From assembly GCA_027314515.1 (NCBI GenBank), contig DAHVAR010000157.1:1-60823 (forward strand): a DNA stretch of 60,823 bases, given 5' to 3'. The notes beneath the pieces were generated by a model that was given only the letters and a program-made list of their open reading frames with translations, did no database searches and was not told the DNA's origin. Source of the stretch: Actinomycetota bacterium. GTDB lineage: Bacteria; Actinomycetota; Actinomycetes; Streptosporangiales; Streptosporangiaceae. Below, in pieces: positions 10,073 to 49,742 of this stretch; positions within the stretch are counted from its first letter, which is position 1, and each line of letters opens with the position of its first letter. Position numbers and translations under genes: made by a program.

Positions 10073-11470
10073 TCATGCTGCCTTCCCCGGCGTCCCTTCG
10101 GTGGTGATGTGCAGCCCGGCGTGCGCCGCGCTGGCGTACTCGTCGTCGATGGCCACCACGGCGCGGCCGGCGGCGTCGAGGATGGAGGCGGCCACTGCGG
10201 CGCGGTAGCCGCTGCGGCAGTGCACCCAGATTTCGCCGCTGGGCACCTCGCCGATGCGGGTCAGCAGTTCATGCAGCGGGATGTGGATGGCTCCGCTGAG
10301 ATGAGACTCGGTCCATTCCAGGTCGCGGCGAACGTCCAGCACGGTGATCTTCCGGTGGTGCAGGACGGCGGCCAGCGCTGGGAAGTCCGAGACCGGATAG
10401 CTGCGCAGCGGCTGCCCGCCGGCCCAGTCGGACGGGTGCCCGGTGGCTGTGGCGGCCGGCCGGTCGAGGCCGATGCGGACCAGTTCGCGCTGCGCCTCGG
10501 CGACGGCCTCCGGGGTCTCGCCGAGCAGCGTCAGCGGGGCTCCCCAGGGGATGAGCCAGCCTAGGTAGGTGGCGAAGCTGCCGTCGAGGGGGAAGCTGAA
10601 GGTGCCCGCCAGGTGCCCGGCCGCGAACGCCGTGCCGGTGCGCAGGTCCACCACCCATTCCCGCGCCTCGAGGCGCCGCCGCAGTTCGGCGGCGTCGGCC
10701 CGGCTGCACTCGGACAGGTCCGCCGCGGTCGGCCCCGCTGCGTTAGCCGGGCCCATGTGCGCGTAGTAGGCCGGATAGGCATCCAGCCCGGCCAGCAGCG
10801 CCTGCACGTACTCTTGCTCGTCCTGGGTGAGCACGGGGTTGGCCCGGCGCTCGTGCCCGATCGTGGACGACTCGCCCTCGGCCTGGGTGGCCGAGCAGAA
10901 GCTGCCGAAGCCGTGCGTGGGATAGATCCCGGTGTCCTCCGGCAGTTCGGCTGACAGCCGGTGCGCGGAAGCGTACTGGGCGCGGGCGAGCGCCCCGGTG
11001 TTCGCCGGGCCGAGCAGGTCCGGCCGGCCGGTCGAGCCGTACAGCAGCGATCCGCCCGTGAACACCGCGGCCGGCTGTCCTGGCCCCTCCAGCACGTAGG
11101 CCAGGTGCGTGAACGTATGCCCGGGCGTGGCAAGCACCCGCACCCGAAGTGCCGGGCTGACCTCGATGACGTCACCCTCGGACACCGGGACCCGGTCGAA
11201 GGCGACCAGGTCGGCCGCGTTCACGTGATAGTCAGCCCCGGTCGCGGCTGCTAGCGCGAGCCCGCCGGTCACGTAGTCGTTGTGCAGGTGGGTCTCGAAG
11301 ACGTGGGTGATCGCTACCTGGCGGCTGGCGGCCAGCGCCAGTACCCGGTCGATGTCGCGCTGCGGGTCGATCACCACCGCGACCGTGCCGTCATGGGCCA
11401 GGTAGCTGCGATCGCCCAGCGTTGGCGTGTCGATGGCGATGATCTCGAAGCCGTGCGAGGGAGCGGTCAT
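10073..11470 (-). CDS. MBL-fold hydrolase with two rhodanese domains (CstB-like persulfide dioxygenase/sulfurtransferase)
   Basis: 465 residues. Residues 1-210 are a metallo-beta-lactamase domain with THLHNDY (H61, H63, D65), H118 in PGHTF and H186 in PTHGFG, the metal pattern of persulfide dioxygenase-like enzymes. Two rhodanese modules follow. The first (about 250-335) lacks a catalytic Cys; the second (about 355-455) has HCRSGYRA with Cys 418. This architecture matches CstB-type proteins, which oxidise persulfides and transfer sulfane sulfur in the cytosol. Its ATG overlaps the stop of the upstream rhodanese gene (ATGA), so the two are translationally coupled. A close paralogue is at 47459-48850. 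Confidence 0.87.
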   Translation of the reverse strand: MTAPSHGFEIIAIDTPTLGDRSYLAHDGTVAVVIDPQRDIDRVLALAASRQVAITHVFETHLHNDYVTGGLALAAATGADYHVNAADLVAFDRVPVSEGDVIEVSPALRVRVLATPGHTFTHLAYVLEGPGQPAAVFTGGSLLYGSTGRPDLLGPANTGALARAQYASAHRLSAELPEDTGIYPTHGFGSFCSATQAEGESSTIGHERRANPVLTQDEQEYVQALLAGLDAYPAYYAHMGPANAAGPTAADLSECSRADAAELRRRLEAREWVVDLRTGTAFAAGHLAGTFSFPLDGSFATYLGWLIPWGAPLTLLGETPEAVAEAQRELVRIGLDRPAATATGHPSDWAGGQPLRSYPVSDFPALAAVLHHRKITVLDVRRDLEWTESHLSGAIHIPLHELLTRIGEVPSGEIWVHCRSGYRAAVAASILDAAGRAVVAIDDEYASAAHAGLHITTEGTPGKAA

Positions 11471-11793
11471 GCCACGTTCTCCTGCGCGCCGCGCACCACC
11501 GGCAGGCCGCGGGTGACCCAGTCCCCGGTGCCGCCGGCCACCGACCGGGCATCCAGGCCCCGCCGGATGAGGAACTGCGCCGCCGTCCAGCTCCGGTTAC
11601 CGGATGCGCAGATCACGTACACCGGCTGACCGGCCGGCAGGTCGCCCGCGTGCTGCGGCAGCCGGGACAGCGGGACCAGCCGCGCACCGGGCACGTGGCC
11701 GCTCACGTATTCGGCCGGCTCACGGACATCGATCACCAGCGCGCCGTCGGCATGCGCCGCGGCGAACGTGCTCAGGTCAACTTCGGGAACCAC
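11467..11793 (-). CDS. Single-domain rhodanese (thiosulfate/persulfide sulfurtransferase)
   Basis: 108 residues starting at GTG 11793, which has a perfect AGGAGG four bases upstream; the frame is open further up but runs through the operator region. The protein is one rhodanese domain: LVIDVREPAEY, GHVPGARLVPLS, and the active-site loop CASGNRS with the catalytic Cys near residue 62. It would carry sulfane sulfur as a Cys-persulfide and could hand it to the coupled MBL-rhodanese protein. Two CsoR-type palindromes lie just upstream. Confidence 0.9.
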   Translation of the reverse strand: MVPEVDLSTFAAAHADGALVIDVREPAEYVSGHVPGARLVPLSRLPQHAGDLPAGQPVYVICASGNRSWTAAQFLIRRGLDARSVAGGTGDWVTRGLPVVRGAQENVA

Positions 11794-11807
11794 GAAACCT
11801 CCTACAG

Positions 11808-11823
11808 ATACCCGGTGGGGTAT
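11808..11823. promoter_or_regulatory. CsoR/RicR/CstR-type operator, proximal copy
   Basis: ATACCC-GGTG-GGGTAT, a perfect 6-bp inverted repeat with a 4-bp spacer. It also fits TACCC-N5-GGTA, the motif of mycobacterial RicR, a copper-sensing CsoR-family repressor. It lies 5 bases upstream of the rhodanese ribosome-binding site, a position where binding would block transcription. Confidence 0.75.
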
Positions 11824-11868
11824 ATGACATTGGTCGCGACGGTAGCCGGCGAAGGTCCCTGGGCGCAA

Positions 11869-11884
11869 ATACCCCGGCGGGTAT
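11869..11884. promoter_or_regulatory. CsoR/RicR/CstR-type operator, distal copy
   Basis: ATACCC-CGGC-GGGTAT, the same perfect inverted repeat as the proximal copy, with centres 61 bp apart. Two sites in one 5' region suggest strong repression of the rhodanese/MBL-rhodanese operon. Given the sulfur genes, a persulfide-sensing CstR is the likely binder (inference); no CsoR-family gene is in the window. Confidence 0.75.
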
Positions 11885-11986
11885 ATAGCCCGTTACCCGG
11901 GATGTCGGGGATGTCCGCGCCCGTGCGCACGGCCGCGGCGCGTACGCACGCATGCCGGCGCTGACTGCGGCGGACCGCGGTCGAGC

Positions 11987-14270
11987 TCATGCGGTCGCAG
12001 GCGGACCGGTGACCGAGAGCTGTGGTCCATCGCCCCGATGCCGTTCGATCTCGGCGAGCGCCAGCTGGCCGGTGCAGCCCTGGCTCAGGGCTGACGACGG
12101 GCGGTCGGCGGTGAGGACGTTCGGGTTGCCGTGGCGGCAGAAGCCGGGGTTGCCAGGATCCGGGTCGTACCATGCGCCGGTGGACAGCTGAGCTACCCCG
12201 CGGCTCACGGCGTCGTCGGTCACCAGCCCGGCCAGGCATGCGCCGCGGTCGTTGAAAATCCGCACGACATCGCCGTCCGCGAGCCCGCGGATGGCCGCCT
12301 CCTCGGGATGCAGCCGCACCGGCTCCCGCCCGGCGACCTTTGCCGACTGGCTGTGCGAGCCGACGTCGAGCTGGCTGTGCAGCCTGGTCCGCGGCTGGTT
12401 CGCCACCAGCTGCAGCGGAAAGCGCCGCGCCGCCGGGGCGCCAAGCCATTCATCGGGTTCCAGCCAGACCGGGTGGCCGGGGCAGTCGGGGTACCGGTAG
12501 CCGTCGATGGTTTCAGAGAAGATCTCGATTTTGCCGGTAGGCGTGGTGAGCGGGTGAGCATCGGGGTCGGCCCGGAAGTCGGCGAGCAGTACCTGCTCCC
12601 GGCCGGTCACCGGCAGCTCGATGCCATCACCCGCCCAGAACTCACCGAACTCCGGCACCGTGTGCCCGTGATCTGCGATCGTGAGCCGCCACTGCTGGTA
12701 GAGGTGACGCAGCCACTCACTGGTCGTGCGGCCCTCGGTGAACTCCTTTCCGGCGCCTAGCCGCTCCGCCACCTCGCCGAAGATCTGATAGTCGTCGCGT
12801 GCCGCACCGTGCGGGCGGGTCAGGGCCGGCATGGGGAAGAACATCCGGTCGTTGTCACCGGCCCCGAAGTCATCCCGCTCGATGCTCATCGTGACCGGCA
12901 GGACGATGTCGGCGTGCCGCGCGGTGGCGGTCCAGAACGGGTCGTGCACCACTACCGTCTCGGGCCGGGCGAACGCGGCGTGCAGGCGCGCCAGGTCCTG
13001 GTGGTGATGGAAGGGGTTGCCGCCGCACCAGTACACCAGGCGGACGTCGGGATAGGTGAGCTGCTGGCCGTTGTAGGAGTAGGTGGCACCGGGGTTGAGC
13101 AGCATGTCGGCGATTCTGGCGACGGGGATGAAGGCGGCGACACCATTGCTGCCCTGCGGAAGCCGGGGCGTTGACACCTCGCGGTGCGGCTCGCCTACCC
13201 TGGCCGTCGACCCGTAGCCGTGCCCGAATCCGCCGCCGGGCAGGCCGATCTGGCCGAGCATCGCCGCGAGCATCACGCCAAGCCACAGCGGCTGCTCGCC
13301 GTGACGGGCACGTTGCAGGGACCAGCTGACCGTGACGAGAGTGCGGCTGGCTGCCATCTCATGTGCCAGGTCGCGGATCCGGTCGGCCGGAACTCCGGTG
13401 ATCTGCGCTGCCCAGAGCGGATCCTTGACGACGCCGTCGGTGTCGCCGCGCAGATACGGCGCGAACCGCTCGAACCCGACCGCATACCGGTCCAGGAAGT
13501 CCGTGTCCGCCAGTCCGTCGGCATCGAGCACATGGGCCAGCGCGAGCATCAGGGCCGCGTCGCTGCCCGGCCGTGGCGCGATCCACTCGGCGGCGGCCTC
13601 GGCCGGGGTGTCGTCGCGGAGCGGGCTGACCGAGACGAACCTGCAGCCACGCGCGCGGGCCGCGCCGACCCAGCCGCGCGTGTTGTGCCGCGATACGCCA
13701 CCGGGCGTCACGGCCGCGTTTTTCGGTGAGATGCCGCCGAAGGCGACGACCAGTTCGGTGTTCGCGGCGATCACCGCCTTGGACGTGGAGTGGCCGAGCA
13801 GCCAGGGCACCTCACCCAGCACGTACGGCAGCAGGACGGTGGACGTGCCGAGGCTGTAGCTGTTCACGTGCCGCACGTATCCGCCGAGGCAGTTCAGGAA
13901 CCGGTGCAGCTGACTTTGCGCATGATGAAACCGCCCGGCACTGGCCCAGCCGTAAGAGCCGCCGTACACCGATCCCGCCCCATGCTCGGCGTACACCCGG
14001 CGCAGTTCGCCGGACAGCAGCTCCAGCGCGGTCTCCCAGGACACCGGCACGAACGGCTGCTCACCCCGCCCGGCTGCGCCGGGGCTGCCCGCCAGCCAGC
14101 CCCTTCCGCACGTGCGGCTGGCCGATGCGGGCCGGGTGGTGCTGCGCCGCGGCGACATTGCCGATCAGCGGCATCGGCTCGGGATCTCCGCGCCACGGCC
14201 GGACCTCCGTCAGCCGGTCTCCGTCGCTGTCTGCCTCGAACGCGCCCCAGTGGGTCAGATGCGTCGCCAT
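11987..14270 (-). pseudogene. BisC-type molybdopterin oxidoreductase (S-/N-oxide reductase), single-base frameshift near the N-terminus
   Basis: The N-terminal 56 residues (MATHLTHWGAFEAD, HPWxGDPxP-like WRGDPEPMPLIGNV, AAQHHPARIGQPHVR) are in one frame and the remaining 700 in another. Removing one base from the TT at 14104-14105 joins VRRGWLAGSPGAAGRG, as expected for the family, giving about 760 residues. It has no CxxCxxxC cluster site, and GGSYGWASAG carries the Mo-ligating Ser of DMSO/TMAO/biotin-sulfoxide reductases. Later landmarks: YWCGGNPFHHHQDL and TARHADIVLPVT. No Tat signal, so cytoplasmic, like BisC, which repairs biotin or methionine sulfoxide. Either a pseudogene or a sequencing error. 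Confidence 0.85.
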
Positions 14271-39017: not shown

Positions 39018-39697
39018 CCAGCGACATGACGGCGCCGGCCGGGCAATCCGGCACCGGCAGCCAGGCACCGGCACCCGGCGGTGAAGCGGTCGGGCAGGCC
39101 CGGCAGCGTGGCCGGCCGCGCAGCGAGAAGGCTCACCGGGCCATTCTCGAGGCAGCCGCGGAACTGCTGCTGGCCCGCGGCCTGTCCGCTGTCAGCATGG
39201 ATGCGGTCGCGCAGCGGGCCGGGGTGAGCAAGGCCACCATCTACCGCTGGTGGCCGACTAAGGAAACCCTCGCCCTTGATGCCCTGTACACAGAGTGGGC
39301 AGCGGCCCGCCCCGGGCCCAGCGACACCGGCTCCCTGCGCGGTGACCTGCTCTCCCTGCTGTGTCCCTGGGCCCGCCTGGCAACTAGCCGCCCGTATGCC
39401 CGGGTGATCGCCGCGCTGCTCACCGAGGCGCACAGCGACCCGGCATTCGCTGGGCAGTACCACGAGCACGTGGTTGAGCCACGCCGGGCCCAGGCCCGTG
39501 CCATCTTCCAGCGCGCCATCGCCCGTGGCGAGATCCCGCCCGGCGCCAACGTCGAAGTAGCGCTCGACCTCCTCTATGGTGCGCTCTATCACCGGCTGCT
39601 GCACGGCCACGCGCCGGTGACAGACCAGTTCATCGACGACGTGGTCGAAATGGCACTGCACGGCATCCGATCGGCCTTATTCATCAATTGTGATTGA
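39014..39697 (+). CDS. TetR/AcrR-family repressor
   Basis: 227 residues. After a 30-residue disordered leader comes a standard TetR DNA-binding domain (AILEAAAELLLARGLSAVSM, then VAQRAGVSKATIYRWWPTKE). The remaining helical ligand domain has the C-terminal pattern of the TetR_C_16-like group. Overlap with the upstream stop (ATGA) places it in the operon it probably represses. Its own stop lies inside a second, different palindrome (39682-39699). Confidence 0.93.
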   Translation: MTSDMTAPAGQSGTGSQAPAPGGEAVGQARQRGRPRSEKAHRAILEAAAELLLARGLSAVSMDAVAQRAGVSKATIYRWWPTKETLALDALYTEWAAARPGPSDTGSLRGDLLSLLCPWARLATSRPYARVIAALLTEAHSDPAFAGQYHEHVVEPRRAQARAIFQRAIARGEIPPGANVEVALDLLYGALYHRLLHGHAPVTDQFIDDVVEMALHGIRSALFINCD

Positions 39698-39699
39698 TG
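39682..39699. promoter_or_regulatory. 18-bp palindrome at the TetR/PiT junction
   Basis: CATCAAT-TGTG-ATTGATG, perfect 7-bp arms. It covers the TetR stop codon and lies just upstream of the phosphate transporter gene. The sequence differs from the operator at 37057, so another regulator probably binds here. Confidence 0.6.
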
Positions 39700-39734
39700 T
39701 ACGATGCCAGAATGCCGACACCGAGCATGCTGAC

Positions 39735-40748
39735 GTGACCGCGCTGCTGGTGGTGCTCGCGGTCGGGTTCGCCTACAGCATGGGCGCGCATTACACCGGG
39801 GCGTGCATGGGCATGCCGCATGCGCTGCAAGCGATCGGCGCGCGGAACGCGCTGCTGGTGATGGCTCCGCTGACGCTGGCGGGAGCCGCCCTGGCCTCGC
39901 ACGCGGTGGAGCGCACCGTGGGCCGTGAGCTGCTGACAGGATCGGGACTGTCGGTGTCCGGCCTGGTGATCGTGCTCGGCGTCGCCTTCGGGCTGACCAG
40001 CTTGTTCAACCTGGTAAGGGTGCCGACGTCGACTATCCAGATCCTGGTGTTCGCGGTGGTCGGAGTCGGCCTGGCGGCCGGAGCCGGAGTGCACTGGGCC
40101 ATCATCGGCACGCTGGCTGTCATCTGGGTAACCGCGCCGGTGGTTGCCGGGCTGCTGGGCTATGCGCTGACCAGGACCCTGGACCTTGTGCCGGCCATCC
40201 GGGGGCAGGCGCAGGTCACCGGGCATGCGGCGGCCGGGAACGCGGATGCCTGGGCCGCTGGCGGGCCGCTGGCGGCCGGGCTGATCATCGTCGGCGCGCT
40301 GGCCTCGTTCACGATGGGCAGCAACGACGTGGCCAACGCGACTGGCTCGCTGGTCGGGACCGGGACCTTCAGCCCGCTGACGGCGGGCCTGATCGGTGGC
40401 GCCGGGCTGGCAGCCGGCGTGCTCACCTGGGGCCGCCCGCTGCTGCGCAAGGTGGCTTTCGACATCGTCACTGTCGACCGGCCCATGGCCGCCGCGGCCC
40501 AGCTCGTCCAGGCCGGGGTCGTGCTGGCAGCGGTCGCGTTCGGGCTCTTCACGTCGATGAACCAGGCGCTCATCGGCGCCATGACCGGTGCCGCCGCCGC
40601 GCGAGGCCGGCGTACCGTCCACGCCAGCGCACTCTACGGCGTGCTGCGCGGCTGGCTGATCGGGCCCGGCGCGGCCATCGCGCTGGGCTTTGGCATCGGC
40701 TGGCTTGTCGTCGTGACGGCGGGCAGCGGTGCGCTGACTGGTGCCTGA
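39735..40748 (+). CDS. pit: Inorganic phosphate transporter, PiT family
   Basis: About 337 residues with ten or so helices. PiT repeats are seen: FAYSMGAHYTGACMGMPHAL in the first half and SFTMGSNDVANATGSLVGT in the second (GxNDVANA motif). Low-affinity Pi or metal-phosphate symport is expected. GTG 39735 aligns with the family start; GTG 39690 is in frame but begins inside the palindrome. Its last 115 bases overlap the convergent TorD-like gene. Confidence 0.88.
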   Translation: MTALLVVLAVGFAYSMGAHYTGACMGMPHALQAIGARNALLVMAPLTLAGAALASHAVERTVGRELLTGSGLSVSGLVIVLGVAFGLTSLFNLVRVPTSTIQILVFAVVGVGLAAGAGVHWAIIGTLAVIWVTAPVVAGLLGYALTRTLDLVPAIRGQAQVTGHAAAGNADAWAAGGPLAAGLIIVGALASFTMGSNDVANATGSLVGTGTFSPLTAGLIGGAGLAAGVLTWGRPLLRKVAFDIVTVDRPMAAAAQLVQAGVVLAAVAFGLFTSMNQALIGAMTGAAAARGRRTVHASALYGVLRGWLIGPGAAIALGFGIGWLVVVTAGSGALTGA

Positions 40749-41605
40749 TCGGCGCCCGCCTGTCCGGCTAGTTCGGTGAGCAGCCACGCGGTACGTCCGG
40801 CCCGGTGGCTCCACCACTGGCTGGCCGGGCCGGGATCCGCGCGTCCGGCGTGCCTGATGGCCCACTGCTCCGACTCCCTGGCGAGCCACTGCAGCGTCTG
40901 CGCCGGATCCTGAGCCAGCATTGCCTGCAGCGCGTACCGGCGCTCGCCGATGCGGTAACCGGTACCGGTGTCGCCGGCCGCTGCGGCCAGCCGGCGACGG
41001 GTCAGGATGATGCCGCTGCGGACCGGCATGAGCAGCGCCGTGACCAGCTCTCCCGGTTCCCCGGCAGCGGGGGCTGCCGGGGCGGCGCGCTGCGCGAGCG
41101 GAAGCGCTGCCGGTGCCCGGTAGCGGCCCGCTTCAGCGGTGATCGCGGCGCTGGTGAGCGCGGCCCAGGCGGAAGCAGCCGGGATGGCGAGGTCGGTGAC
41201 CGCGTCGAGGTAGGCCGGCAGCCAGGGCCACAGGTGCTCCCAGAACAGGGCGGCCCTGGCGCGGGCCAGCATCGTGGCGGTGGCCGGGCGGTGTACCTGC
41301 GCAGCTGCCTCGCCGAGTCCGGCGTACAGGCTGAGCAGCGCGGTCAGGTGGTCGGGCTCGGCTGGCGGGGTGAGGCCGATGGCGCGCCAGAAGCCCGCGA
41401 CCCGGTCGGCGCCCTCGCCGCCGAGTGCGCCGTCGGGACCGAGGAAGACCGATGCGTACGGCGGGCAGTTGAGCATGAAGACTTCGGTGTGCTCATGCGG
41501 GCTCAGGACGGGAATGCCGAGCGCGCGGCTGACAGCCCCGGCGTCGGCCGGATTGTCGGCGACGGCGCCGGCCGCGCGGAGCAACTCGAAGCTTGCGGCG
41601 GTCAC
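40634..41605 (-). CDS. TorD/DmsD-family molybdoenzyme chaperone
   Basis: 323 residues from GTG 41605, which overlaps the stop of the molybdoenzyme gene (GTGA). The N-terminal 200 residues are all-helical with features of TorD proteins (FMLNCPPYASVFLGPDGALG, ADHLTALLSLYAGL-like region, LFWEHLWPWLPAYLDAV). Such chaperones insert or protect the Mo cofactor site of a partner. The C-terminal 100 residues are less conserved and the last 38 overlap the PiT gene in antisense. Confidence 0.82.
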   Translation of the reverse strand: MTAASFELLRAAGAVADNPADAGAVSRALGIPVLSPHEHTEVFMLNCPPYASVFLGPDGALGGEGADRVAGFWRAIGLTPPAEPDHLTALLSLYAGLGEAAAQVHRPATATMLARARAALFWEHLWPWLPAYLDAVTDLAIPAASAWAALTSAAITAEAGRYRAPAALPLAQRAAPAAPAAGEPGELVTALLMPVRSGIILTRRRLAAAAGDTGTGYRIGERRYALQAMLAQDPAQTLQWLARESEQWAIRHAGRADPGPASQWWSHRAGRTAWLLTELAGQAGADQAPVSAPLPAVTTTSQPMPKPSAMAAPGPISQPRSTP

Positions 41606-44577
41606 TCGCGGCGCTCCGCGTCCGTGCCGGGCCCCGGCAGGGCGTAGGCGGCCGTGGTCGGCTTGAGGGGGCGCATCAGCCAGCGTGGCCGTCGCGAGCC
41701 ATCGGGCGATACCTGCCCGGCAGGGCGGGCGAGGGTGAGCCACTGCCGGTAGACCTCATGGGCCCGGTGGGTGTCGACGTGGATGTCACCGTGCCGGTCG
41801 CCGGGTCTGGCGGGCCCGACCCGGACGGCCTGGTGCCAGCAGTGCATGCCGGAGATGGGGTCGGGATGCACCCCGAAGGTCAGGTTCTGGTGGACGCCGG
41901 TGTCGCTCCACCAGATGCGCCTGGTGTCCGGATCGGCCGAGTCGTACGGGCCGGCCGGCTTGCGCTGCTGCATCCGCCAGCCGTCATCGCCGTGTTCCAG
42001 GCTGACGACGGGCATCGGGGCACCGCTGCGCGGGTCGCCCTGCAGGCGCCACCGGCCCATGTGATGGCTGCAGGCCACCACACCGGGCCGGATGCCCTCG
42101 GTGATCCATGCCTTCGCGACGAAGTAGCCGATCTCGGTCTCGACCCGGACCAGATCGCCGGTCTTTGCGATGCCGAACCGGCCCGCATCCCGCGGATGGA
42201 CCCACACCGGGTTGGTATGCGCGAGTTCGTTGAGCCACTTGGCGTTCGCCGAGCGGGTGTGGATCTGGGTCGGCAGCCGGAAGGTGGACAGCAGCACGAC
42301 CTGGCCAGGCTCCAGCCGGTCCGGGTGCACGTGGCTCTTGATGTAGCCGGGCAGCGCCTGCTCGGGCCAGCCCCAGCCGGCCAGCGTCGACGACCAGAAC
42401 TCGAGCCGGCCCGACGGGGTGGGGAAGCCGCGGAGGACCTGCCCGTCCACGACGACCCCGGCCGGCGCGCGCCCGTCCGGGTCCGCTTCAGGGGCACCAG
42501 TAGGCACGATGTTCGGCCCAGCCGGCCGGCGGGCGGCGCTGTAGACCCGCCCGGTGCCGGTGATGACCGTGTCCTGAAGCTCGCTGTCAGGTACTGGCTG
42601 CTCGTGCAGGGGCCCGTTCCCGCGGGTAATCTCGAATGCCCCGTAACGGCGCATCCACTGCAACGGCGTGAGGCCATCGCTGGCCGCGCGCTCGGGCAGC
42701 CCCGGTACCGAGTGCTCGAACATCCAGCCGTAGTACTCGTCCACGGTCAGCTTCTCGCCGGGCCTGGCACGGGATTCGTGGTACTGCCGGATGCCGAGCG
42801 AGCCGTCCGGGTCGATCCGCCAGGACAGCTCGGTCCAGAACTCGTTCTCCTCCCAGACCTCGCCGGGGTTGACCTCGCGCGAGTCGGTGATCGTCTCGCC
42901 CAGCCGCTCGCGCGCGGCGCGCAGCACCGGCTGCCGGAAGCCGATCCACTGGCCGTCGTACTGCTCGTAGGAGTGCGTGTCGTGGCGTTCCGGGCTGTGC
43001 CCCATCGGCAGCACGTAATCGGCGAAGTAGGCCGATTCGCTCCAGGTCGGCGTCAGCGCGACGAAGCAGCCCACCTTGTTCTCGTCGGTCAGCGCCTCCA
43101 TCCAGGACAGCCCGTCCGGGTTCGTCCAGACCGGGTTGTAGACGCGGATGAAGTAGGTGTCGAGGCGGCCCCGCCCGTCAGCCAGGAAGTGGGGGAGCAG
43201 GAAGCTCAGCTCGTTCTGCGCGAGCGGGTACTCAGCCGGCCAGGACAGGTCCTGCCAGACGCCTGGGTGCGGCGGGACGTGAATGGGCCGGGGGATGAAC
43301 TTGTTCCATGCGTTCGGGAACGTGCCGCCCGGCGTGGCCACCGCGCCGAGCAGCGCGCTGATCAGGAACACGGTCCTGGACACCTGCCAGCCGCCGAGAT
43401 TGGCGGCGGCCGCCGACCGCCAGGAGTGACAGGCGAACTGATGGCCGGCCCCGGCCACCACCTCGGCGACCTCGGCGAGCACGGCAGCGTCGATGCCCGA
43501 CTCGGCCGCCGCGTAGTCGAAGGTGAATTCGGTGTACAGCCGCGCGAGGATGGCCTCGAAGGACTCGAACGTCGGCGGCTCGCCGGGATGACATGCGGCG
43601 AGGTATTCCTGCCAGTTCCACCAGCGCCGGACGAAGTCGCGATCGTAGCGCTTGGTCTGGATCAGATGGTTGGCGATGGCCAGGTTGATGGCCGCCTCGC
43701 TGCCGGGCTGCGGAGACAGCCAGTAATCGGCGTGGGTGGCGGTGTTGGACAGCCTGGTGTCCAGCACGATGACTTTCGCGCCGTTCTCCCTGGCCTCCGT
43801 GATCCGCTGGGCGTGCGGGTTGAAGTAATGCCCGGACTCCAGGTGAGCGCTGATCAGGTAGATGACCTTCGCGTGCGCGTGATCCGGGCTAGGCCGGTCG
43901 ATGCCCATCCAGAACTGGAAGCCGGTCCGGCCGCCGCTCGAGCACACGTTGGTGTGTGAGTTGTGGCCGTCCACCCCCCAGCTGGCGAGCACGCGCTCGG
44001 TGAACCCGTCCTCGCCGGGCCGGCCCAGGTGCACCATGATCTCGTTCTGGCGGCCCTCGGTCAGCGCGGCACGGATGCGGCCGGCCAGCGCGTCGAGTGC
44101 CTCGTCCCAGCTCACCCGCTCCCAGTTGCCAGAGCCGCGCGGCCCGCTGCGGCGCAGCGGGTACAGGATCCGGTCCGGGTCGGTGACCTGGTTAAGCGTG
44201 GCCGGGCCCTTGGCGCAGTTCCGGCCGCGCGAACCAGGATGCTCGGGGTTGCCCTCGAACTTGCGAACCTGCCCGCTCTCGCGGTCCACGTAGGCCAGCA
44301 GCCCGCAGGCGGACTCGCAGTTGAAGCAGGTGGTCGGCACCAGCATGTAGTGCCGCTCCTCGCGGCGCGGCCAGGCTCTGGATGACAGCTCGGCCCAGTC
44401 ATCCCACCGTTCCTTCGGCGGGAAGGCTGCCAGGTGCACCCGGCTCGGACCCTGGTAAAAGGTCTCGCCGCGGGCCAGCGTCGCAGCGCGCGCCGCGGAC
44501 AGCTGGGTGTTCAGCGCCGCCAGGCCAGGGTCGGCCGGAGGGCCCGCTGACGGGGTGCCGGGGTGGTTTCGTGGCAT
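41602..44577 (-). CDS. Molybdopterin oxidoreductase catalytic subunit with [4Fe-4S] cluster (Psr/Phs/arsenate-type)
   Basis: 991 residues. The cluster motif is TTCFNCESACG with C84, C87, C91 and C121 (GRNCAKG). The Mo ligand is Cys 212 in NVCSSGGRTGF, so it belongs with polysulfide, thiosulfate or tetrathionate-type enzymes rather than the Ser-ligated BisC. No twin-arginine signal is seen in the N-terminal 70 residues, so the subunit should face the cytosol. GGAGAG stands 6 bases before ATG 44577. It is followed by its TorD-like chaperone and preceded by the Fe-S/NrfD subunit. Confidence 0.9.
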   Translation of the reverse strand: MPRNHPGTPSAGPPADPGLAALNTQLSAARAATLARGETFYQGPSRVHLAAFPPKERWDDWAELSSRAWPRREERHYMLVPTTCFNCESACGLLAYVDRESGQVRKFEGNPEHPGSRGRNCAKGPATLNQVTDPDRILYPLRRSGPRGSGNWERVSWDEALDALAGRIRAALTEGRQNEIMVHLGRPGEDGFTERVLASWGVDGHNSHTNVCSSGGRTGFQFWMGIDRPSPDHAHAKVIYLISAHLESGHYFNPHAQRITEARENGAKVIVLDTRLSNTATHADYWLSPQPGSEAAINLAIANHLIQTKRYDRDFVRRWWNWQEYLAACHPGEPPTFESFEAILARLYTEFTFDYAAAESGIDAAVLAEVAEVVAGAGHQFACHSWRSAAAANLGGWQVSRTVFLISALLGAVATPGGTFPNAWNKFIPRPIHVPPHPGVWQDLSWPAEYPLAQNELSFLLPHFLADGRGRLDTYFIRVYNPVWTNPDGLSWMEALTDENKVGCFVALTPTWSESAYFADYVLPMGHSPERHDTHSYEQYDGQWIGFRQPVLRAARERLGETITDSREVNPGEVWEENEFWTELSWRIDPDGSLGIRQYHESRARPGEKLTVDEYYGWMFEHSVPGLPERAASDGLTPLQWMRRYGAFEITRGNGPLHEQPVPDSELQDTVITGTGRVYSAARRPAGPNIVPTGAPEADPDGRAPAGVVVDGQVLRGFPTPSGRLEFWSSTLAGWGWPEQALPGYIKSHVHPDRLEPGQVVLLSTFRLPTQIHTRSANAKWLNELAHTNPVWVHPRDAGRFGIAKTGDLVRVETEIGYFVAKAWITEGIRPGVVACSHHMGRWRLQGDPRSGAPMPVVSLEHGDDGWRMQQRKPAGPYDSADPDTRRIWWSDTGVHQNLTFGVHPDPISGMHCWHQAVRVGPARPGDRHGDIHVDTHRAHEVYRQWLTLARPAGQVSPDGSRRPRWLMRPLKPTTAAYALPGPGTDAERRE

Positions 44578-44591
44578 CTGGGACTCTCCTG

Positions 44592-46133
44592 CTAGGCCAG
44601 CGGGACCGACTGGCCGGCTTGGACGTAGGCGTGTTCCTGGCTGAGCAGCCCGGCAAGGGCGAACGGCACCGCTGCCAGGCCAATCCATGGCGCCGCCACC
44701 GCGACAGCGACCGCAGCCAGGCCGGGCCAGAAGAACCAGGCGAACTGCCCGCGCGTCATGTTCCAGGTGGCCAGGTGTGCGTGCGCCGTCACGTGCGGCA
44801 TCGAGATCTCGGCGGCCACCAGCAGCAGGTTCAGCCCGGCTGCCAGCGCGAGGGCCACCTCGCCGGCGCTGACGGCGTGCGCGGGCGCGAGCCAGCTCAG
44901 CACCGGCAGGGTCGCCGCGGTGCCGGCCAGCGCGGCCTGGACTGCCAGGTGCGGTGCGAGCAGCGGGCTCTGCCATAGGTCACGTGCCTTAGCCTGGCCG
45001 AACAGCCAGGCGGTGTAGATCGCCGTGCCGAGGGCGAGGGGCAACCCTGCCCAGGCGAATGCCTGGCGCGCGGTCAGGAAGCCGGCCGCGTTCCCGGCCA
45101 GCGCAAGCAGCAGGTACCCGGTGGTGGCCGCGCCGTAGCCACCGATGATCAGGCTGCCGCGCACCAGCCAGCTTCGCCACTGGTGCCGGGTGAAGATGAG
45201 GTAGAACCGCGCCGGGTGCTTGAGGTCGATGATCAGCAGCACCCCGGTGACCGCGAGGAAGGTTAGTGCGAAGACCGGAGCGGCCCAGCGCACCGCGGGG
45301 TTGCTCCAGCGGAGCACGCCGGTGAGGGCGAGCAGGACCGGCACGGCGAAACCGCCCGCCGCGATGCTCTTGGTCCAGGTGTACAGGCTGACCCGCCAGC
45401 CCCACGGCGCGGTGTGCGGCACGTCATAGGACAGCAGCGCGGCAGCCGACGAGGCAGGCCGGCCGGGGTGGCCAGAGCTCACCGACCGCGGTCCTGCCGC
45501 GCCCTGGGTTGCCCACGCGAGCAAGCCGCCCTCGGGCCGCCGCGCGGCCAGCGGGTCCAGGGTGGCCTGATGCGCTCCCTTGTAGAAGACGCCGGGCCGG
45601 GTTTCCTTCTCCGGCCGCCGCACCTGCACCGGCTCGCGCCCGATCACCCGCGCGACCTGCGAGTCCGGGTCGTTCAGGTCGCCGACGATGATCGCCTCAA
45701 CCGGGCACACCGTCACGCACGCGGGCTCGAGGCCCACGTCGAGCCGGTGCGCGCACATGTTGCATTTCTCCGCCGAGTGATCCTCGGGATTGATGAAGAT
45801 GGCGTCGTACGGGCATGCGGCCATGCATGCCTTGCAGCCGATGCAGACCGACTTGTCGAAGTCGACGATGCCGTCGTCGCGCTTGTACATCGCCGCGGTC
45901 GGGCAGGCACTCACGCACGGCGCGTCCTCGCACTGGTTGCACCTGGTGACCTGGAAGGCTCGCCGGACGTCCGGAAAGGTTCCGGCATCTACCGACTTGA
46001 CGTACGTGCGCGTTACCCCGACGGGTACCTCGTTCTCGCTCTTGCATGCGGTTGTGCAGGCGTGGCACCCGATGCACCGGCTCTGGTCGAGCAGTTTCAC
46101 CCAGCGCGGCGCGGGCAAGTCGGTTACGGCCAT
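44592..46133 (-). CDS. Fused ferredoxin-like (four [4Fe-4S]) and NrfD-type membrane subunit
   Basis: About 513 residues from ATG 46133. Residues 15-190 hold four Cys groups: CIGCHACTTAC, CNQCEDAPCVSACP, CIGCKACMAACPYD and CNMC...CVTVCP, the pattern of DmsB/PsrB/NrfC electron-transfer subunits. A linker of about 70 residues leads to eight hydrophobic helices of an NrfD/PsrC quinone-binding domain (TKSIAAGGFAVPVLLA, LIIDLKHPARFYLIF). In most systems these are two proteins. It links the catalytic subunit to the quinone pool. Alternative starts at 46202/46199 would add 23 residues. Confidence 0.88.
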   Translation of the reverse strand: MAVTDLPAPRWVKLLDQSRCIGCHACTTACKSENEVPVGVTRTYVKSVDAGTFPDVRRAFQVTRCNQCEDAPCVSACPTAAMYKRDDGIVDFDKSVCIGCKACMAACPYDAIFINPEDHSAEKCNMCAHRLDVGLEPACVTVCPVEAIIVGDLNDPDSQVARVIGREPVQVRRPEKETRPGVFYKGAHQATLDPLAARRPEGGLLAWATQGAAGPRSVSSGHPGRPASSAAALLSYDVPHTAPWGWRVSLYTWTKSIAAGGFAVPVLLALTGVLRWSNPAVRWAAPVFALTFLAVTGVLLIIDLKHPARFYLIFTRHQWRSWLVRGSLIIGGYGAATTGYLLLALAGNAAGFLTARQAFAWAGLPLALGTAIYTAWLFGQAKARDLWQSPLLAPHLAVQAALAGTAATLPVLSWLAPAHAVSAGEVALALAAGLNLLLVAAEISMPHVTAHAHLATWNMTRGQFAWFFWPGLAAVAVAVAAPWIGLAAVPFALAGLLSQEHAYVQAGQSVPLA

Positions 46134-46238
46134 ATGGCGACCGTATGTACTGCGCAAGTGCGGCGGCAGCCGGGAATCGTTTGTATCCCCCACAACCATC
46201 ATTTGTAACTGAGCGCTGGCCCGGCCCGTCGCGCGGGT

Positions 46239-46253
46239 CCCCCGCTGCGGGGG
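46239..46253 (-). terminator. GC hairpin directly after the sqr stop codon
   Basis: CCCCCGC and GCGGGGG separated by one base form a strong stem of five or more pairs just past the stop. There is no U-run, so complete termination is doubtful; it may reduce read-through into the Fe-S/NrfD gene or stabilise the upstream mRNA. Confidence 0.5.
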
Positions 46254-47462
46254 TTAGGCGAGACCGCGCATCATCAGGTTCCAGTACAGGGCCGGCAGGC
46301 CGTACCGCTTGAGCAGCCACATGTCATAGCGCGGCTTCAGGGTGTTGATCAGCGGGAAGGTCGGCCGCCGCTTCAGGTCGTAATCGAACTCGGCGAGCAG
46401 CATCCGGTTCCGGCTGGTCACCAGCGGGCACGAGGTGTAGCCGTCGTAGCGCTGAGCGGCCGGCTGGCCGCTCAGCGCCGCCAGCAGGTTCGCGACCAGC
46501 ACCGGGGCTTGCTTGCGGATGGCGGCGCCGGTCTTGGATGTCGGCAGGTTCGAGGCGTCGCCGATCGCGAACACATTCGGCCACCCGACATGCTGGAGCG
46601 TGTATTTGTCCACGTTGACGTAGCCGAACGGGCTGGCCGGATCGGCCAGCGGGCTGGCCTTTACCCAGTCTGGGGCGCTTTGCGGCGGAGTGGCATGCAG
46701 GAGGTCGTAGTCGACCGCCTCCTTGGTGCCCGCTTTGGTGTCGAGGATGACCGCCCGCCTGGCGTCGCCGTCCACTTCGGCTAGCTGGGATTCCTTCCGC
46801 ACCTCGATGCCGTACCCGGCGGCGATGCCCTCCAGCACCTTCGCCCAGTCGGGCTGGCTGAACATCGCGGCCGTGGGCAGTACCAGGATGATCCTGGTCT
46901 TGTCGAGCACGCCCTGGCTGCGCCACCAGTCGGCGGCGAGGTAGGCGATCTTCTGCGGTGCGCCGGCACACTTGATCGGCCCGGCCGGCATGGTGAACAC
47001 GGCAGTGCCACCGCGCATGTCCCGAATGAATTCCCAGGTACGCGGGGTCAGGTCGAAGCGGTAGTTGCTGGACACGCCGTTACGGCCGAGCGCCTCGGTG
47101 AGCCCGGGAACCTTGTAGTAATCCAGCTGGATCCCCGGGCCCACGACCAGGTAGTCGTAGCCCACAGTGCGGCCGCCGTCGGTGGTGACCGTCTGACCGG
47201 CCGGATCGACCGCGGTCGCGGCCTCGGTGATCCACCGCAGTCCCTTCGGCATGACCGAAGCCTCCGGGCGGACTGCCGCGGACTGCGGCGCGCGACCGCC
47301 GCCGACGAGCGTGAACAACGGCTGGTAGTAATGCTGGCTGGACGGCTCGATGACGGCGATGTCCGGCTGGCCGGCCCGGACCAGCCGGGCGGCCGTCGTG
47401 ATCCCGGCGGTCCCGCCGCCGATGATCAGGATCTTGTGGTGCTCGGTGCCGGCTGCGCTCAT
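46254..47462 (-). CDS. sqr: Sulfide:quinone oxidoreductase
   Basis: 402 residues, two-Rossmann flavoprotein. FAD motif IIGGGTAGITTAARL (13-27), second nucleotide-like region after residue 190, and FAIGDASNLPTSKTGAAIRKQ near 298-318. C165 (GPIKCAGAPQK) and C345 (YTSCPLVTSRNRM) are the two redox cysteines of the SQOR type. It oxidises sulfide to a persulfide with quinone at the membrane. The start overlaps the stop of the upstream MBL-rhodanese gene (ATGA), so sulfide oxidation and persulfide processing are made together. Confidence 0.92.
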   Translation of the reverse strand: MSAAGTEHHKILIIGGGTAGITTAARLVRAGQPDIAVIEPSSQHYYQPLFTLVGGGRAPQSAAVRPEASVMPKGLRWITEAATAVDPAGQTVTTDGGRTVGYDYLVVGPGIQLDYYKVPGLTEALGRNGVSSNYRFDLTPRTWEFIRDMRGGTAVFTMPAGPIKCAGAPQKIAYLAADWWRSQGVLDKTRIILVLPTAAMFSQPDWAKVLEGIAAGYGIEVRKESQLAEVDGDARRAVILDTKAGTKEAVDYDLLHATPPQSAPDWVKASPLADPASPFGYVNVDKYTLQHVGWPNVFAIGDASNLPTSKTGAAIRKQAPVLVANLLAALSGQPAAQRYDGYTSCPLVTSRNRMLLAEFDYDLKRRPTFPLINTLKPRYDMWLLKRYGLPALYWNLMMRGLA

Positions 47463-48850
47463 CGCGTTAACTCCTTCGGCTGACTGCGCAAGATGGGTAG
47501 CCCCGCCCCCTCGGCATTGGCGAAGTCGTCATCGACGCTGATCACCCGGCGGCCGTCGGCCGCCAGCATCGAAGCGGCAACGACAGCGCGGTAGCCGGTG
47601 TGGCAGTAGATCCATACGTCCCCGGCCGGGATCTCCTCAACCCGGCCGGGCAACTGGCTGAACGGGATATGCATCGCGCCAGCGACGTGCCCGTCCTGCC
47701 ACTCCAGCCGACGGCGAACGTCCAGGACGAGGACGCCCTCCTGACCGCCCGACCCCGCCATCGCGGCGGCCAGATCACCGAACTTTGCCAGCCGCATCGT
47801 GGCGAGATCCTGCCCGGCTGCCCAGGCCTGCGGCCCGCCCGAGGCCGCTGCGACCGGACGGTCGATCCCGATCCGAACCAGTTCGCGCTGGGCCTGCGCG
47901 ACCTGCTCGGCTGTCCCGCCGAGCAGCGTCAGCGGCGTGCCCCACGGCATCGCCCAGCCGAGATAGCTGGCGAAGCTGCCGTCGAGTGAGAAGGAGAATG
48001 ATCCGGGCAGGAATCCGGCCGCGAACGCGATGCGGTTGCGCAGGTCGACGACCCACTCGCCAGCGTCGATGCGGCGGCGGATCTCTGCCGGGTCGGCCGG
48101 CCGGGGAGGGGTGAGATCGGCCGCGTCGGGTCCGGCGAGGTTGGCCGGCCCCATCTGCGCGTAGTACGTGGGGTAGGCGTCCAGCCCCGCCAGCAGGGAG
48201 TCGACATAGGCTTGCTCGGCCATGGTCAGCACCGGGTTGACCTGCTGCTCCCTGGCGATGGTGGACCAGGCTGCCTGAGCCTGGGTCGCGGCGCAGAAGC
48301 TGCCGAACCCGTGCGTCGGGTAGATCTGAGCGGTATCCGGCAACTCCCGCGCCAGCCGGTGGGCGGATGCGTACTGCGCGTGCGCCAGCGGCCTGGTGTT
48401 GTCCGGCCCGAGAAGGTCGGGACGGCCGGTCGAGCCGAAGAGCAGAGATCCACCGGTGAACACCGCGCCCATCGACCCGGCCGACTCCAGCGCGTAGCTC
48501 AGGTGGTTGAAGGTATGGCCGGGCGTGGCCAGTACGTGCAGCCGCATGTGGGGGCTGATCTCGATGATCTCGCCGTCCCTCACGCAGGTGCGCTCGAAGC
48601 GCACCGGGTCGGCCTCATTGACCAGGTAGGCGGCACCAGCCTGCTGGGACAGCGCCAGGCCGCCGCTGACGTAATCGTTGTGGATGTGAGTCTCGGCGAT
48701 GTGCGTGATGCGTACGCCTGCCGTGCCGGCCAGCGCCGTTATCCGGTCGGTATCGCGCTGCGGGTCGATGACGACGGCCACGTTCCCGTCGTGCACCAGA
48801 TAGCTGCGGTCACCGAGAGTCGGCGTCTCAATCGGGATCACTTCGACCAT
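47459..48850 (-). CDS. MBL-fold hydrolase with two rhodanese domains (CstB-like), second paralogue
   Basis: 463 residues, close to the protein at 10073-11470 over its full length. Metal ligands: THIHNDY (H55, H57, D59), PGHTFNH and PTHGFGSFC. The first rhodanese module has no catalytic Cys, the second has IYCHTGYRA. It likely converts persulfides produced by the coupled sqr. ATG 48850 is chosen because GGGAGG is 9 bases upstream; ATG 48859 directly abuts the GGGAGG. It is the first gene of the sulfur operon and divergent from GntR. Confidence 0.88.
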   Translation of the reverse strand: MVEVIPIETPTLGDRSYLVHDGNVAVVIDPQRDTDRITALAGTAGVRITHIAETHIHNDYVSGGLALSQQAGAAYLVNEADPVRFERTCVRDGEIIEISPHMRLHVLATPGHTFNHLSYALESAGSMGAVFTGGSLLFGSTGRPDLLGPDNTRPLAHAQYASAHRLARELPDTAQIYPTHGFGSFCAATQAQAAWSTIAREQQVNPVLTMAEQAYVDSLLAGLDAYPTYYAQMGPANLAGPDAADLTPPRPADPAEIRRRIDAGEWVVDLRNRIAFAAGFLPGSFSFSLDGSFASYLGWAMPWGTPLTLLGGTAEQVAQAQRELVRIGIDRPVAAASGGPQAWAAGQDLATMRLAKFGDLAAAMAGSGGQEGVLVLDVRRRLEWQDGHVAGAMHIPFSQLPGRVEEIPAGDVWIYCHTGYRAVVAASMLAADGRRVISVDDDFANAEGAGLPILRSQPKELTR

Positions 48851-48893
48851 GGCCAGCATCCTCCCGAAGGGTAGGCTGCTCGATCGGTCAAAT

Positions 48894-48909
48894 GTACGAT
48901 CATTCGTAC
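48894..48909. promoter_or_regulatory. Palindromic operator between the sulfur operon and gntR
   Basis: GTACGA-TCAT-TCGTAC, perfect 6-bp arms. It lies 44 bases from the MBL-rhodanese start and 62 bases from the GntR start. The adjacent GntR protein is the likely ligand, acting on both directions. Confidence 0.72.
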
Positions 48910-48971
48910 GGGGAGGCAAGGCTCCTGCTCAAGGCCGTGGCCGGTGGCCGGCGACAGCGGAAGGGAGACTG

Positions 48972-49742
48972 ATGACCCCGGACGTTGCCCGCACTGCTGC
49001 CGTCGCGGGGCCGCTGGATCGCCGCAGCCCGACCCCGTTGTGGGCGCAACTTCGTGCTGACCTGCTGCGGCGGCTGCAGGCAGGTGCGTTCGACCTGGAC
49101 TTTCCCGGCGAGATGGCACTGGTGGCGGACTACCGCGTCAGCCGGCAGACGGTCCGGGCTGCCCTCGCCGAACTACGGACGGATGGCGTGGTGCTGGCCG
49201 AACGGGGACGACGCCCGCGGCTCGCCGGCCAGATCGCCCAGCCGCTTGGTACCGTGTACTCGCTGTTCACCCCGGTCGAGGCGGCCGGGCTGCGGCAGAC
49301 CAGCGTGGTCAGGTCCGCCGGCCTGCGTGCTGACGGCGTGGTTGCCGACCGGCTCGGGCTGGAGGCGTCGACTCCGCTGTTCAGGCTCGAGCGGCTGCGG
49401 CTGGCTGGCGACGAGCCGCTCGCGCTGGATACCGTGTGGCTGCCCGGTGACGTGGGTGCCGCTCTGCTGGGGGCAAGTTTCACCCATGTCGCGCTTTACG
49501 ACGAACTCGAGGCCAGGAGCGGCGTGCGCATCGACGGCGGGCGAGAGCAGATCACCGGAGTGGTGCCGACGAAGGCGGAGCAGCGCCTGCTCGGCATCGG
49601 CGCGTCCACTGGCGCGCTGGCGATCAGCCGGCTCGGATACGCCGCCGGCAGGCCGGTCGAATGGCGGACGACCCTGATCCGCGGCGACCGGTTCTGCCTG
49701 CTCGCGGAGTTCTCCGCGCGCACTGGGCGGCGGCGCTTCTGA
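48972..49742 (+). CDS. GntR-family (HutC-like) regulator
   Basis: 256 residues. Winged helix at residues 20-90 (PLWAQLRADLLRRLQAGAFD, VSRQTVRAALAELRTDGVV) followed by a UTRA-type ligand domain (SPLFRLERLRLAGDEPLALDT-like core, EQITGVVPTKAEQRLLGI). HutC members sense small acids or sugars; a sulfur-linked ligand would be new. ATG follows AAGGGAG. Divergent from the sulfur operon. Confidence 0.92.
   Translation: MTPDVARTAAVAGPLDRRSPTPLWAQLRADLLRRLQAGAFDLDFPGEMALVADYRVSRQTVRAALAELRTDGVVLAERGRRPRLAGQIAQPLGTVYSLFTPVEAAGLRQTSVVRSAGLRADGVVADRLGLEASTPLFRLERLRLAGDEPLALDTVWLPGDVGAALLGASFTHVALYDELEARSGVRIDGGREQITGVVPTKAEQRLLGIGASTGALAISRLGYAAGRPVEWRTTLIRGDRFCLLAEFSARTGRRRF

Follow-up and report, generated by a model that had tools for sequence, protein, structure and literature searches.

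The stretch of DNA analysed here, referred to below as the window, comprises 60,823 nucleotides (positions 1 to 60,823, forward strand, of contig DAHVAR010000157.1, GenBank assembly GCA_027314515.1) from an actinomycetote of the Streptosporangiaceae, whose genome assembly amounts to 5.86 Mb in 280 contigs and is 97.9% complete. Between positions 40634 and 49742 it carries a candidate operon for cytosolic sulfide oxidation, in which a metallo-beta-lactamase (MBL)-rhodanese protein, a sulfide:quinone oxidoreductase (SQR) and a molybdenum (Mo) enzyme complex are encoded by five same-strand genes facing a GntR-type regulator. An earlier note, made from the sequence alone, had proposed this arrangement, and all six genes are indeed present, as follows:

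48972..49742, plus strand: GntR/UTRA regulator of the HutC/PhnF type (Pfam GntR and UTRA; open reading frame 48849-49742, likely start ATG 48972)
48894..48909, no strand: candidate GntR operator GTACGA-TCAT-TCGTAC, an inverted repeat (core ATGTACGATCAT from 48892)
47459..48850, minus strand: MBL-rhodanese-rhodanese protein with the architecture of a type III persulfide dioxygenase, HNDY/TGGS subfamily (Pfam; canonical iron-ligand Asp missing)
46254..47462, minus strand: SQR (closest solved relative human SQOR; both cysteine motifs present)
44592..46202, minus strand: 4Fe-4S dicluster-type Fe-S protein fused to an NrfD membrane anchor (Pfam; inside-facing by charge)
41602..44577, minus strand: catalytic molybdoenzyme subunit of 991 aa with a Cys ligand and a 4Fe-4S cluster (three-domain molybdopterin oxidoreductase by Pfam; own clade)
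40634..41605, minus strand: TorD/NarJ-like assembly chaperone (Pfam PF02613)
39690..40748, plus strand: convergent PHO4/PiT family transporter, weakly similar to CysP sulfate permeases (NF053884, 87 bits against a cut-off of 400)

The structural genes are spaced by -4, 51, 14 and -4 nt, which fits one transcript; the negative values correspond to the ATGA overlap of the MBL-rhodanese and SQR genes and the GTGA overlap of the Mo and TorD-like genes, 4 nt each, both of which had been reported correctly. The Mo open reading frame reaching 44976 is over-extended, and 14 nt lie between the fusion gene and the 44577 start. Since the likely GntR start is the ATG at 48972, the divergent region between the GntR and MBL-rhodanese genes measures about 120 bp. 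At the far end, the PHO4/PiT transporter adjoins the module elsewhere only in the congener locus L029, among the loci compared, and its membership of the module is possible but unproven.

The product of 46254-47462 is identified by its sequence as an SQR, a flavoprotein of the human SQOR type: its best solved match is human SQOR (6mp5, 363.6 bits by sequence alignment), and both redox cysteine motifs, KCAGAPQK and YTSCP, are kept. The predicted model of the MBL-rhodanese (predicted local distance difference test score, pLDDT, 88) matches the folds of 3tp9 (template modelling score 0.89) and of 3r2u from Staphylococcus aureus, which we take to be CstB. The description of this protein as CstB-like therefore stands for its fold and its MBL-rhodanese architecture, but not for its metal site, which lacks the third iron ligand of CstB/ETHE1. 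The solved persulfide dioxygenases 3tp9, 3r2u, 5ve3 and 4ysb read S/T-G-D at a position where the window protein reads T-G-G (G134), the Asp being presumably the third ligand of the 2-His-1-Asp site in ETHE1/CstB. Among 12 aligned proteins of the HNDY/TGGS subfamily, both iron-site His are kept, the Asp position is Gly in all 12, HNDY replaces HADH/HADF in all 12, and the C-terminal rhodanese Cys C416 is invariant. A family search returned the HNDY/TGG pattern in 28 of 30 loci, with one SGA and one not scored. The host genome itself holds three MBL-rhodanese matches at E <= 1e-30, all TGG, the third with HADF instead of HNDY.

A link to a characterised enzyme comes from a Streptomyces angustmyceticus plasmid, where an MBL protein of the HNDY/TGGS subfamily lies in the gene order pdo-tauE-csoR-rhodanese, the order given for the sco0618-0621 circuit of S. 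coelicolor (PMC7533328). According to the same source, the persulfide dioxygenase (PDO) of S. coelicolor oxidises glutathione persulfide (GSSH) with O2 uptake at a Vmax of 1.19 umol/min/mg. On the strength of gene order in S. angustmyceticus, the SCO0618 sequence not having been compared, the S. coelicolor enzyme is likely an orthologue of the window subfamily; the missing Asp, considered as proof against a dioxygenase, is weakened by this match, and we infer by analogy that the window protein may be a persulfide dioxygenase. The actinobacterial family with Gly for the iron-ligand Asp apparently includes an active Streptomyces enzyme; besides the window protein, members lie at L292 (4983-6419) and, as the third of the host genome, at L280 (2493-3875, on contig C115). 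Divergent from that gene, at 1769-2476, ArsR and rhodanese parts occur in one open reading frame, possibly a persulfide sensor. The window also carries a second, minus-strand cluster (10073-14158) of a BisC/TorA-like S/N-oxide reductase (TIGR00509, 895 bits, under cut-off), a rhodanese and an HNDY/TGGS MBL-rhodanese, and a similar Mo-rhodanese-MBL arrangement is found in the congener locus L281.

The catalytic Mo subunit is widespread. A scan of the genome collection returned at least 592 related stretches at E <= 1e-3, of which the best 80, at 67-96% identity and mostly from metagenome-assembled genomes (MAGs), bear the record titles of actinobacteria, Acidobacteria, Gemmatimonadetes, Binatota, Chloroflexi, Armatimonadetes, Gammaproteobacteria and a few others; plasmid matches at 50-62% come from Thermomicrobium roseum, Rhodococcus jostii and haloarchaea. 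In a 60-row tree, obtained by a short search with Shimodaira-Hasegawa-like approximate likelihood ratio (SH-aLRT) support, without bootstrap and with a program warning on long branches, the 23 rows of the clade group together (SH-aLRT 100) on a long stem. Its nearest sister is an enzyme of Azoarcus sp. KH32C (SH-aLRT 93), followed by three family-member enzymes (SH-aLRT 99 for all 27), and these four sister enzymes show Tat-like N-termini on reading (Tat, twin-arginine translocation). The PsrA-like (3 rows)/PhsA, TtrA-like, ActB and SoeA-like rows all lie outside the clade, the TtrA-like rows scoring under the TtrA family cut-off; ArrA, for which the reference search found no match, is not in the tree. 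The Mo subunit thus appears to belong to a clade separate from the enzymes compared, and the suggested placement with PsrA/PhsA is not borne out. No assigned function was found for the clade in the libraries searched. One record among the relatives, titled Klebsiella pneumoniae MAG (L077), holds the Mo module together with SulP and MBL genes and is probably a mislabelled metagenome bin.

Among profile models, PhsA is the best NCBIfam match at 184.6 bits of a cut-off of 694, and TtrA (100.6/1750), ArrA (111.2/1600) and Fdh-alpha (148.4/666.25 bits) are likewise under their cut-offs. Of solved sequences, ArrA (120.5 bits) scores highest, followed by the Thermus polysulfide/thiosulfate reductase (108.4 bits), and the predicted model, of moderate pLDDT (73), has ArrA and polysulfide reductase among its best solved folds, which confirms the superfamily only. 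Conservation was read in a 90-locus set, which leaves out L001-L004, the short loci L091-L141 and the re-fetched L181, L184, L185, L186, L188 and L190. Within it, the Fe-S cluster motif CFNCE[SA][AG]CG is present in 90/90 loci, and a Cys at the position of the ArrA Cys, presumably the Mo ligand, is kept as HN[ST]HTN[VI]CS[SA] in 89, the remaining one (L061) not having been inspected. Ahead of the cluster stands a conserved stretch of the form SAAR..EARGETFYPGPSR..FPPKERWDDW.

The earlier note had placed the Mo active site in the cytosol, and both lines of evidence available agree with it. No Tat signal was recognised at the N-termini of the Mo subunits of the window or of the 90 loci, by pattern and reading, with no dedicated predictor. 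A loose RR pattern occurs in 25 of the 90 upstream stretches, with 28 matches in total; 20 of these lie at most 14 residues from the cluster and are the conserved body motif, and the eight farther ones have no signal-like stretch on reading. A hydropathy test was dropped because the Tat-like KH32C protein itself was not separated by it, so that the absence of a Tat signal rests on pattern and reading. In the NrfD loops, Lys and Arg (K/R) are more numerous on the Fe-S side than on the other side in 76/76 proteins of the fusion family (medians 12 vs 2), the window protein having 10 vs 3. Counts on single proteins of the Mo clade gave 10-16 vs 0-2 in six loci with at least seven helices found, and were weaker where only five helices were found (8 vs 5 for the window, 8 vs 6 for L059). 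Anchors in SoeA-like context carry 20-21 K/R on the Fe-S side vs 2-3, whereas the pattern is reversed in a PsrC-like anchor (6 vs 14) and in the anchor that accompanies the Tat-bearing Mo enzyme of KH32C (2 vs 10). With no recognisable Tat signal, and with the positive charge of NrfD on the Fe-S side, a cytosolic position of the active site is the most likely; compared with two exported anchors, that of the clade appears inverted in the membrane.

The neighbourhood of the Mo gene was compared within 7 kb and often holds sulfur genes. An Fe-S/NrfD gene is nearby in 75/90 loci by clustering (at least 450 aa, and taken as fused, in 70 of the 75), and TorD in 67/90 by profile. Unsupervised clustering of neighbours returned MBL-rhodanese (22 loci), SulP (14), DsrE (11), TusA (5) and SQR (4) as sulfur-linked groups; LysR (18), ArsR (8) and GntR (7) as regulators; and ABC-transporter ATPases (9) and short-chain dehydrogenases (7) besides, representatives of the LysR, SulP, DsrE, ArsR, TusA, GntR, dehydrogenase and ABC clusters having been checked with Pfam. 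An 11-locus cluster antisense to TorD is an artefact. At least one gene of the sulfur profile panel was found in 36/90 loci vs 1/40 controls, the single control match being a PiT gene, and MBL-rhodanese, rhodanese, SQR, DsrE or TusA in 30/90 vs 0/40; the panel was built largely from the same loci, the controls were 40 regions picked arbitrarily from the same genomes or related ones, on shorter contigs (420 kb vs 943 kb), and related loci are not independent. Among the loci with long flanks, 25/52 hold a panel sulfur gene. Moreover, across 150 genomes of the family the MBL subfamily is present in 10/11 with the Mo clade vs 42/139 without it (one-sided Fisher p 1.1e-4, with fragments counted and relatedness ignored). 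The Mo clade is thus often embedded among sulfur genes, in keeping with the connection first proposed.

All five structural genes occur together in Actinomadura formosensis (L059), the congener L029 and L016, so that the set is kept beyond the genus. In A. formosensis NBRC 14204 the identities are 67% for MBL, 75% for SQR, 79% for Fe-S and 73% for Mo, with DsrE and TusA nearby. Locus L016, a MAG, has the order GntR-SQR-MBL-FeS/NrfD-Mo-TorD with the SQR match in three pieces; L009 has GntR-MBL-FeS/NrfD-Mo-TorD without SQR; and in L182 (genome G032) the Mo module and a GntR-MBL-SQR unit lie a few kb apart. Farther away, Halomicrococcus shows the order rhodanese-TauE-FeS/NrfD-Mo. SulP genes run in the same direction as the Mo gene in L035, L045, L051, L053, L055, L058, L067, L069, L070, L075, L076, L077, L079 and L179. 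In L053 the SulP gene lies upstream, in the other 13 loci at most about 2.5 kb downstream, and it possibly serves sulfate exit. A gene for an Mrp/NBP35-type ATPase follows the Mo gene in Rhodococcus (L086, 11799-12968), Natrinema (L087, 11897-13057) and a second Amycolatopsis (L189, 7223-8992); the panel found no TorD in these three loci, and the ATPase is perhaps an alternative maturation factor.

As to regulation, the GntR helix-turn-helix and UTRA domains expected of a HutC-type regulator are both present by Pfam. The inverted repeat at 48894-48909, previously called a perfect palindrome, has two perfect 6-bp arms, but its 4-bp spacer is asymmetric and the whole is imperfect. Its core, ATGT[AC]CG[AG][ATC]CAT, gave 8 distinct sites in 7 genomes over about 3.1 Mb of DNA, against about 1.5 expected from base composition, with the pattern derived from the same sites and overlapping stretches included in the total. 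Each site is placed between the GntR and MBL genes, except in L016, where GntR and SQR flank it, and AAATGTACGATCATTCG is common to five genomes. Four of the seven GntR loci (L009, L016, L029 and L182) contain the core, further sites being those of the window, G047 and G029; it was not found in the GntR loci L005, L019 and L039. Since the motif recurs at a like position in six other genomes, the repeat appears to be more than chance, and GntR control of the operon through this putative operator is plausible, as had been supposed. A LysR-type regulator is found near the Mo module in L007, L008, L011, L012 and 14 more loci, mostly without GntR; L039 and L182 have both, and LysR hints at alternative control.

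Taken together, we consider it slightly better than an even chance that the locus is a cytosolic sulfide-oxidation operon leading from sulfide through persulfide and sulfite to sulfate, with the Mo complex acting like SoeABC. SQR would send the electrons of sulfide to quinone and leave a persulfide on a low-molecular-weight thiol as the probable acceptor; the MBL-rhodanese, judging from its family and from the measured activity of its likely orthologue, would convert this persulfide with O2 to sulfite; and the Mo-Cys subunit with its fused Fe-S/NrfD anchor, after maturation with the help of the TorD-like protein, would oxidise sulfite, the presumed substrate, to sulfate at the cytosolic face. 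Electrons of the Mo complex would reduce quinone via NrfD, giving quinone entry at both SQR and NrfD, and sulfate could leave by SulP or PiT-type carriers. The GntR protein would most likely repress the operon from 48894-48909. The host genome has a RuBisCO large-chain gene (465.5 bits; contig C191, 38593-39516, L297), form I-like on reading, which makes a lithoautotrophic use possible.

Several observations weigh against this proposal. Sulfite, thiosulfate and carrier-bound persulfide would all fit the neighbourhood as the Mo substrate, and the host genome has two genes of the sulfite-oxidase fold (PF00174) whose products could oxidise the sulfite. The iron-ligand Asp of ETHE1/CstB is absent from the MBL-rhodanese. 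No panel sulfur gene was found in 27/52 of the long-flank loci, and few loci have all five genes (3 of the best 80, one of them a congener). In G047, GntR, a core site, MBL and an SQR-like gene stand together without a match to the Mo clade, which suggests that the regulator is primarily that of the MBL-SQR pair. Finally, the SoeA-like enzymes of L191-L193, so called from gene order and dsr context only, lie on another branch than the Mo clade.

This last point needs qualification, as the identification of SoeA among the rows compared is uncertain. A survey has soeABC conserved in all the dsr-positive sulfur oxidisers that it covered (PMC6397845). Eight dsr-positive gammaproteobacterial genomes were used (8 of 394 passing the dsrA cut-off), and among 23 regions of them that were examined, Mo-FeS-NrfD clusters in soeABC order were found in 3/8 genomes (L191-L193); a fourth such cluster (L194) groups elsewhere in the tree, and the L201-type group, with a weak DmsC anchor, might be SoeA instead. 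The idea that the window subunit is SoeA itself was rejected or left weak, its clade occurring in only 1/8 of the dsr-positive genomes. Eight matches of about 1000 aa (L171-L178) were discarded as SoeA candidates, L171 being read as ActB of alternative complex III and the other seven having the same domain make-up. MopB trees have been described as containing a bSreA/SoeA radiation (PMC10100899), and SoeA-like cytosolic enzymes have been proposed in Sulfobacillus (PMC4378227; PMC5114278). The window complex appears, then, to be an analogue of SoeABC in a clade apparently separate from SoeA-like rows that were themselves assigned by context.

Among the alternatives, the one that survives best, unlikely as we judge it, is that the Mo complex itself oxidises sulfane sulfur, delivered as persulfide by TusA/DsrE or a low-molecular-weight thiol, at Mo-Cys, with the MBL-rhodanese mainly a sulfur transferase. 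The profile search placed DsrE near the Mo gene in 16/90 loci and TusA in 13/90, Rhodococcus jostii pRHL3 has DsrE and TusA directly upstream of Fe-S/NrfD-Mo with MBL genes nearby, and the MBL partner combines an unusual metal site with the invariant C416. However, enzymes of the Mo superfamily carry out single two-electron transfers, and sulfane sulfur to sulfite takes more than one such step; moreover, dioxygenase activity has been measured for the probable Streptomyces orthologue of the MBL protein (PMC7533328).

A cytosol-facing polysulfide, thiosulfate or tetrathionate reductase of anaerobic respiration is rather improbable, although the earlier note had left a reducing role as an option. 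The best matches, PhsA among families and ArrA and polysulfide reductase among solved sequences and folds, suggest it, but the enzyme lies outside the PsrA/PhsA and TtrA-like branches with every score far under the curated cut-offs, and a reductase is the weaker choice beside an SQR and a member of an O2-dependent dioxygenase family, both partners coming from O2-dependent or quinone-reducing families. Furthermore, many relatives are found in actinomycetes and haloarchaea, which are mainly aerobic. It is similarly improbable that the enzyme acts on a non-sulfur substrate (an arsenic oxyanion, formate, phenylacetyl-CoA or the like) amid incidental sulfur neighbours, as might be read from the long-flank loci devoid of panel sulfur genes and from the Thermomicrobium and Natrinema loci near branched-chain amino-acid transporters, in Natrinema also near acyl-CoA genes, since the association with sulfur genes recurs across phyla and the models for ArrA and for the dehydrogenases of formate and ethylbenzene score far under their cut-offs.

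Returning to the sulfide-to-sulfate proposal, its SQR-PDO logic is already known; as far as our searches show, what is new is an apparently separate Mo clade whose anchor is fused and appears flipped, the association of this clade with sulfur genes in different phyla, the gathering of the whole set in one operon, and an MBL-rhodanese partner without the usual carboxylate ligand. The earlier statement that this exact gene set is undescribed was not contradicted by the titles and abstract openings in the open-licence literature searched. More broadly, and only tentatively, the clade could be an independently evolved cytosolic sulfur-oxidising family, flipped from a Tat-exported ancestor and fed by TusA/DsrE or a carboxylate-less MBL-rhodanese dioxygenase, which would complete the path from sulfide to sulfate in many bacteria and haloarchaea that are not normally regarded as sulfur oxidisers. 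A function assigned to this clade, spread as it is over many phyla, would change the sulfur-cycle annotation of environmental genomes, and the MBL-rhodanese family poses an enzymology question of its own, namely persulfide dioxygenation without the usual iron-binding Asp. Streptomyces is described as making sulfite from sulfane sulfur (PMC7533328), and with SQR, a dioxygenase-type protein and a quinone-linked Mo complex in one operon, the way in which actinomycetes finish the oxidation to sulfate, and whether energy is gained from it, becomes testable in a named isolate, Actinomadura formosensis.

Compared with known systems, the window complex resembles SoeABC of Allochromatium vinosum, as far as that system was consulted, in its Mo-Cys subunit, Fe-S protein, NrfD anchor, cytosolic face (predicted here) and sulfur-oxidation setting; it differs in that Fe-S and NrfD are fused and encoded upstream of the Mo gene, that its clade lies apart from the SoeA-like clusters of dsr context, and that it is so far known from its genes. 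With PsrABC/PhsABC it shares a Mo-Cys enzyme with Fe-S and NrfD-type partners, and these together with ArrA are its nearest solved relatives; in contrast, the PsrA/PhsA-like rows have Tat-like N-termini on reading while the window clade has no recognised Tat signal, the charge pattern is inverted in one PsrC-like anchor, and the branch is a different one. The SQR-PDO pathway of heterotrophs and the PDO/SoeABC pair of Beggiatoa leptomitoformis follow the same logic of sulfide, persulfide and sulfite; in the parts of PMC11507549 consulted, the combination in B. leptomitoformis is discussed and doubted, with no SoeABC protein detected in the samples, and no single operon of the window's kind is mentioned. 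CstB and the type III persulfide dioxygenases share with the MBL-rhodanese its architecture, fold and SQR partner, and differ by the iron-ligand Asp that is Gly in the HNDY/TGGS subfamily. A parallel for that subfamily, probably shared to judge from S. angustmyceticus gene order, is the CsoR-PDO-TauE-rhodanese circuit of S. coelicolor, where TauE is proposed to export the sulfite (PMC7533328) and control is by CsoR, whereas here the regulator is GntR and the Mo complex could oxidise the sulfite instead.

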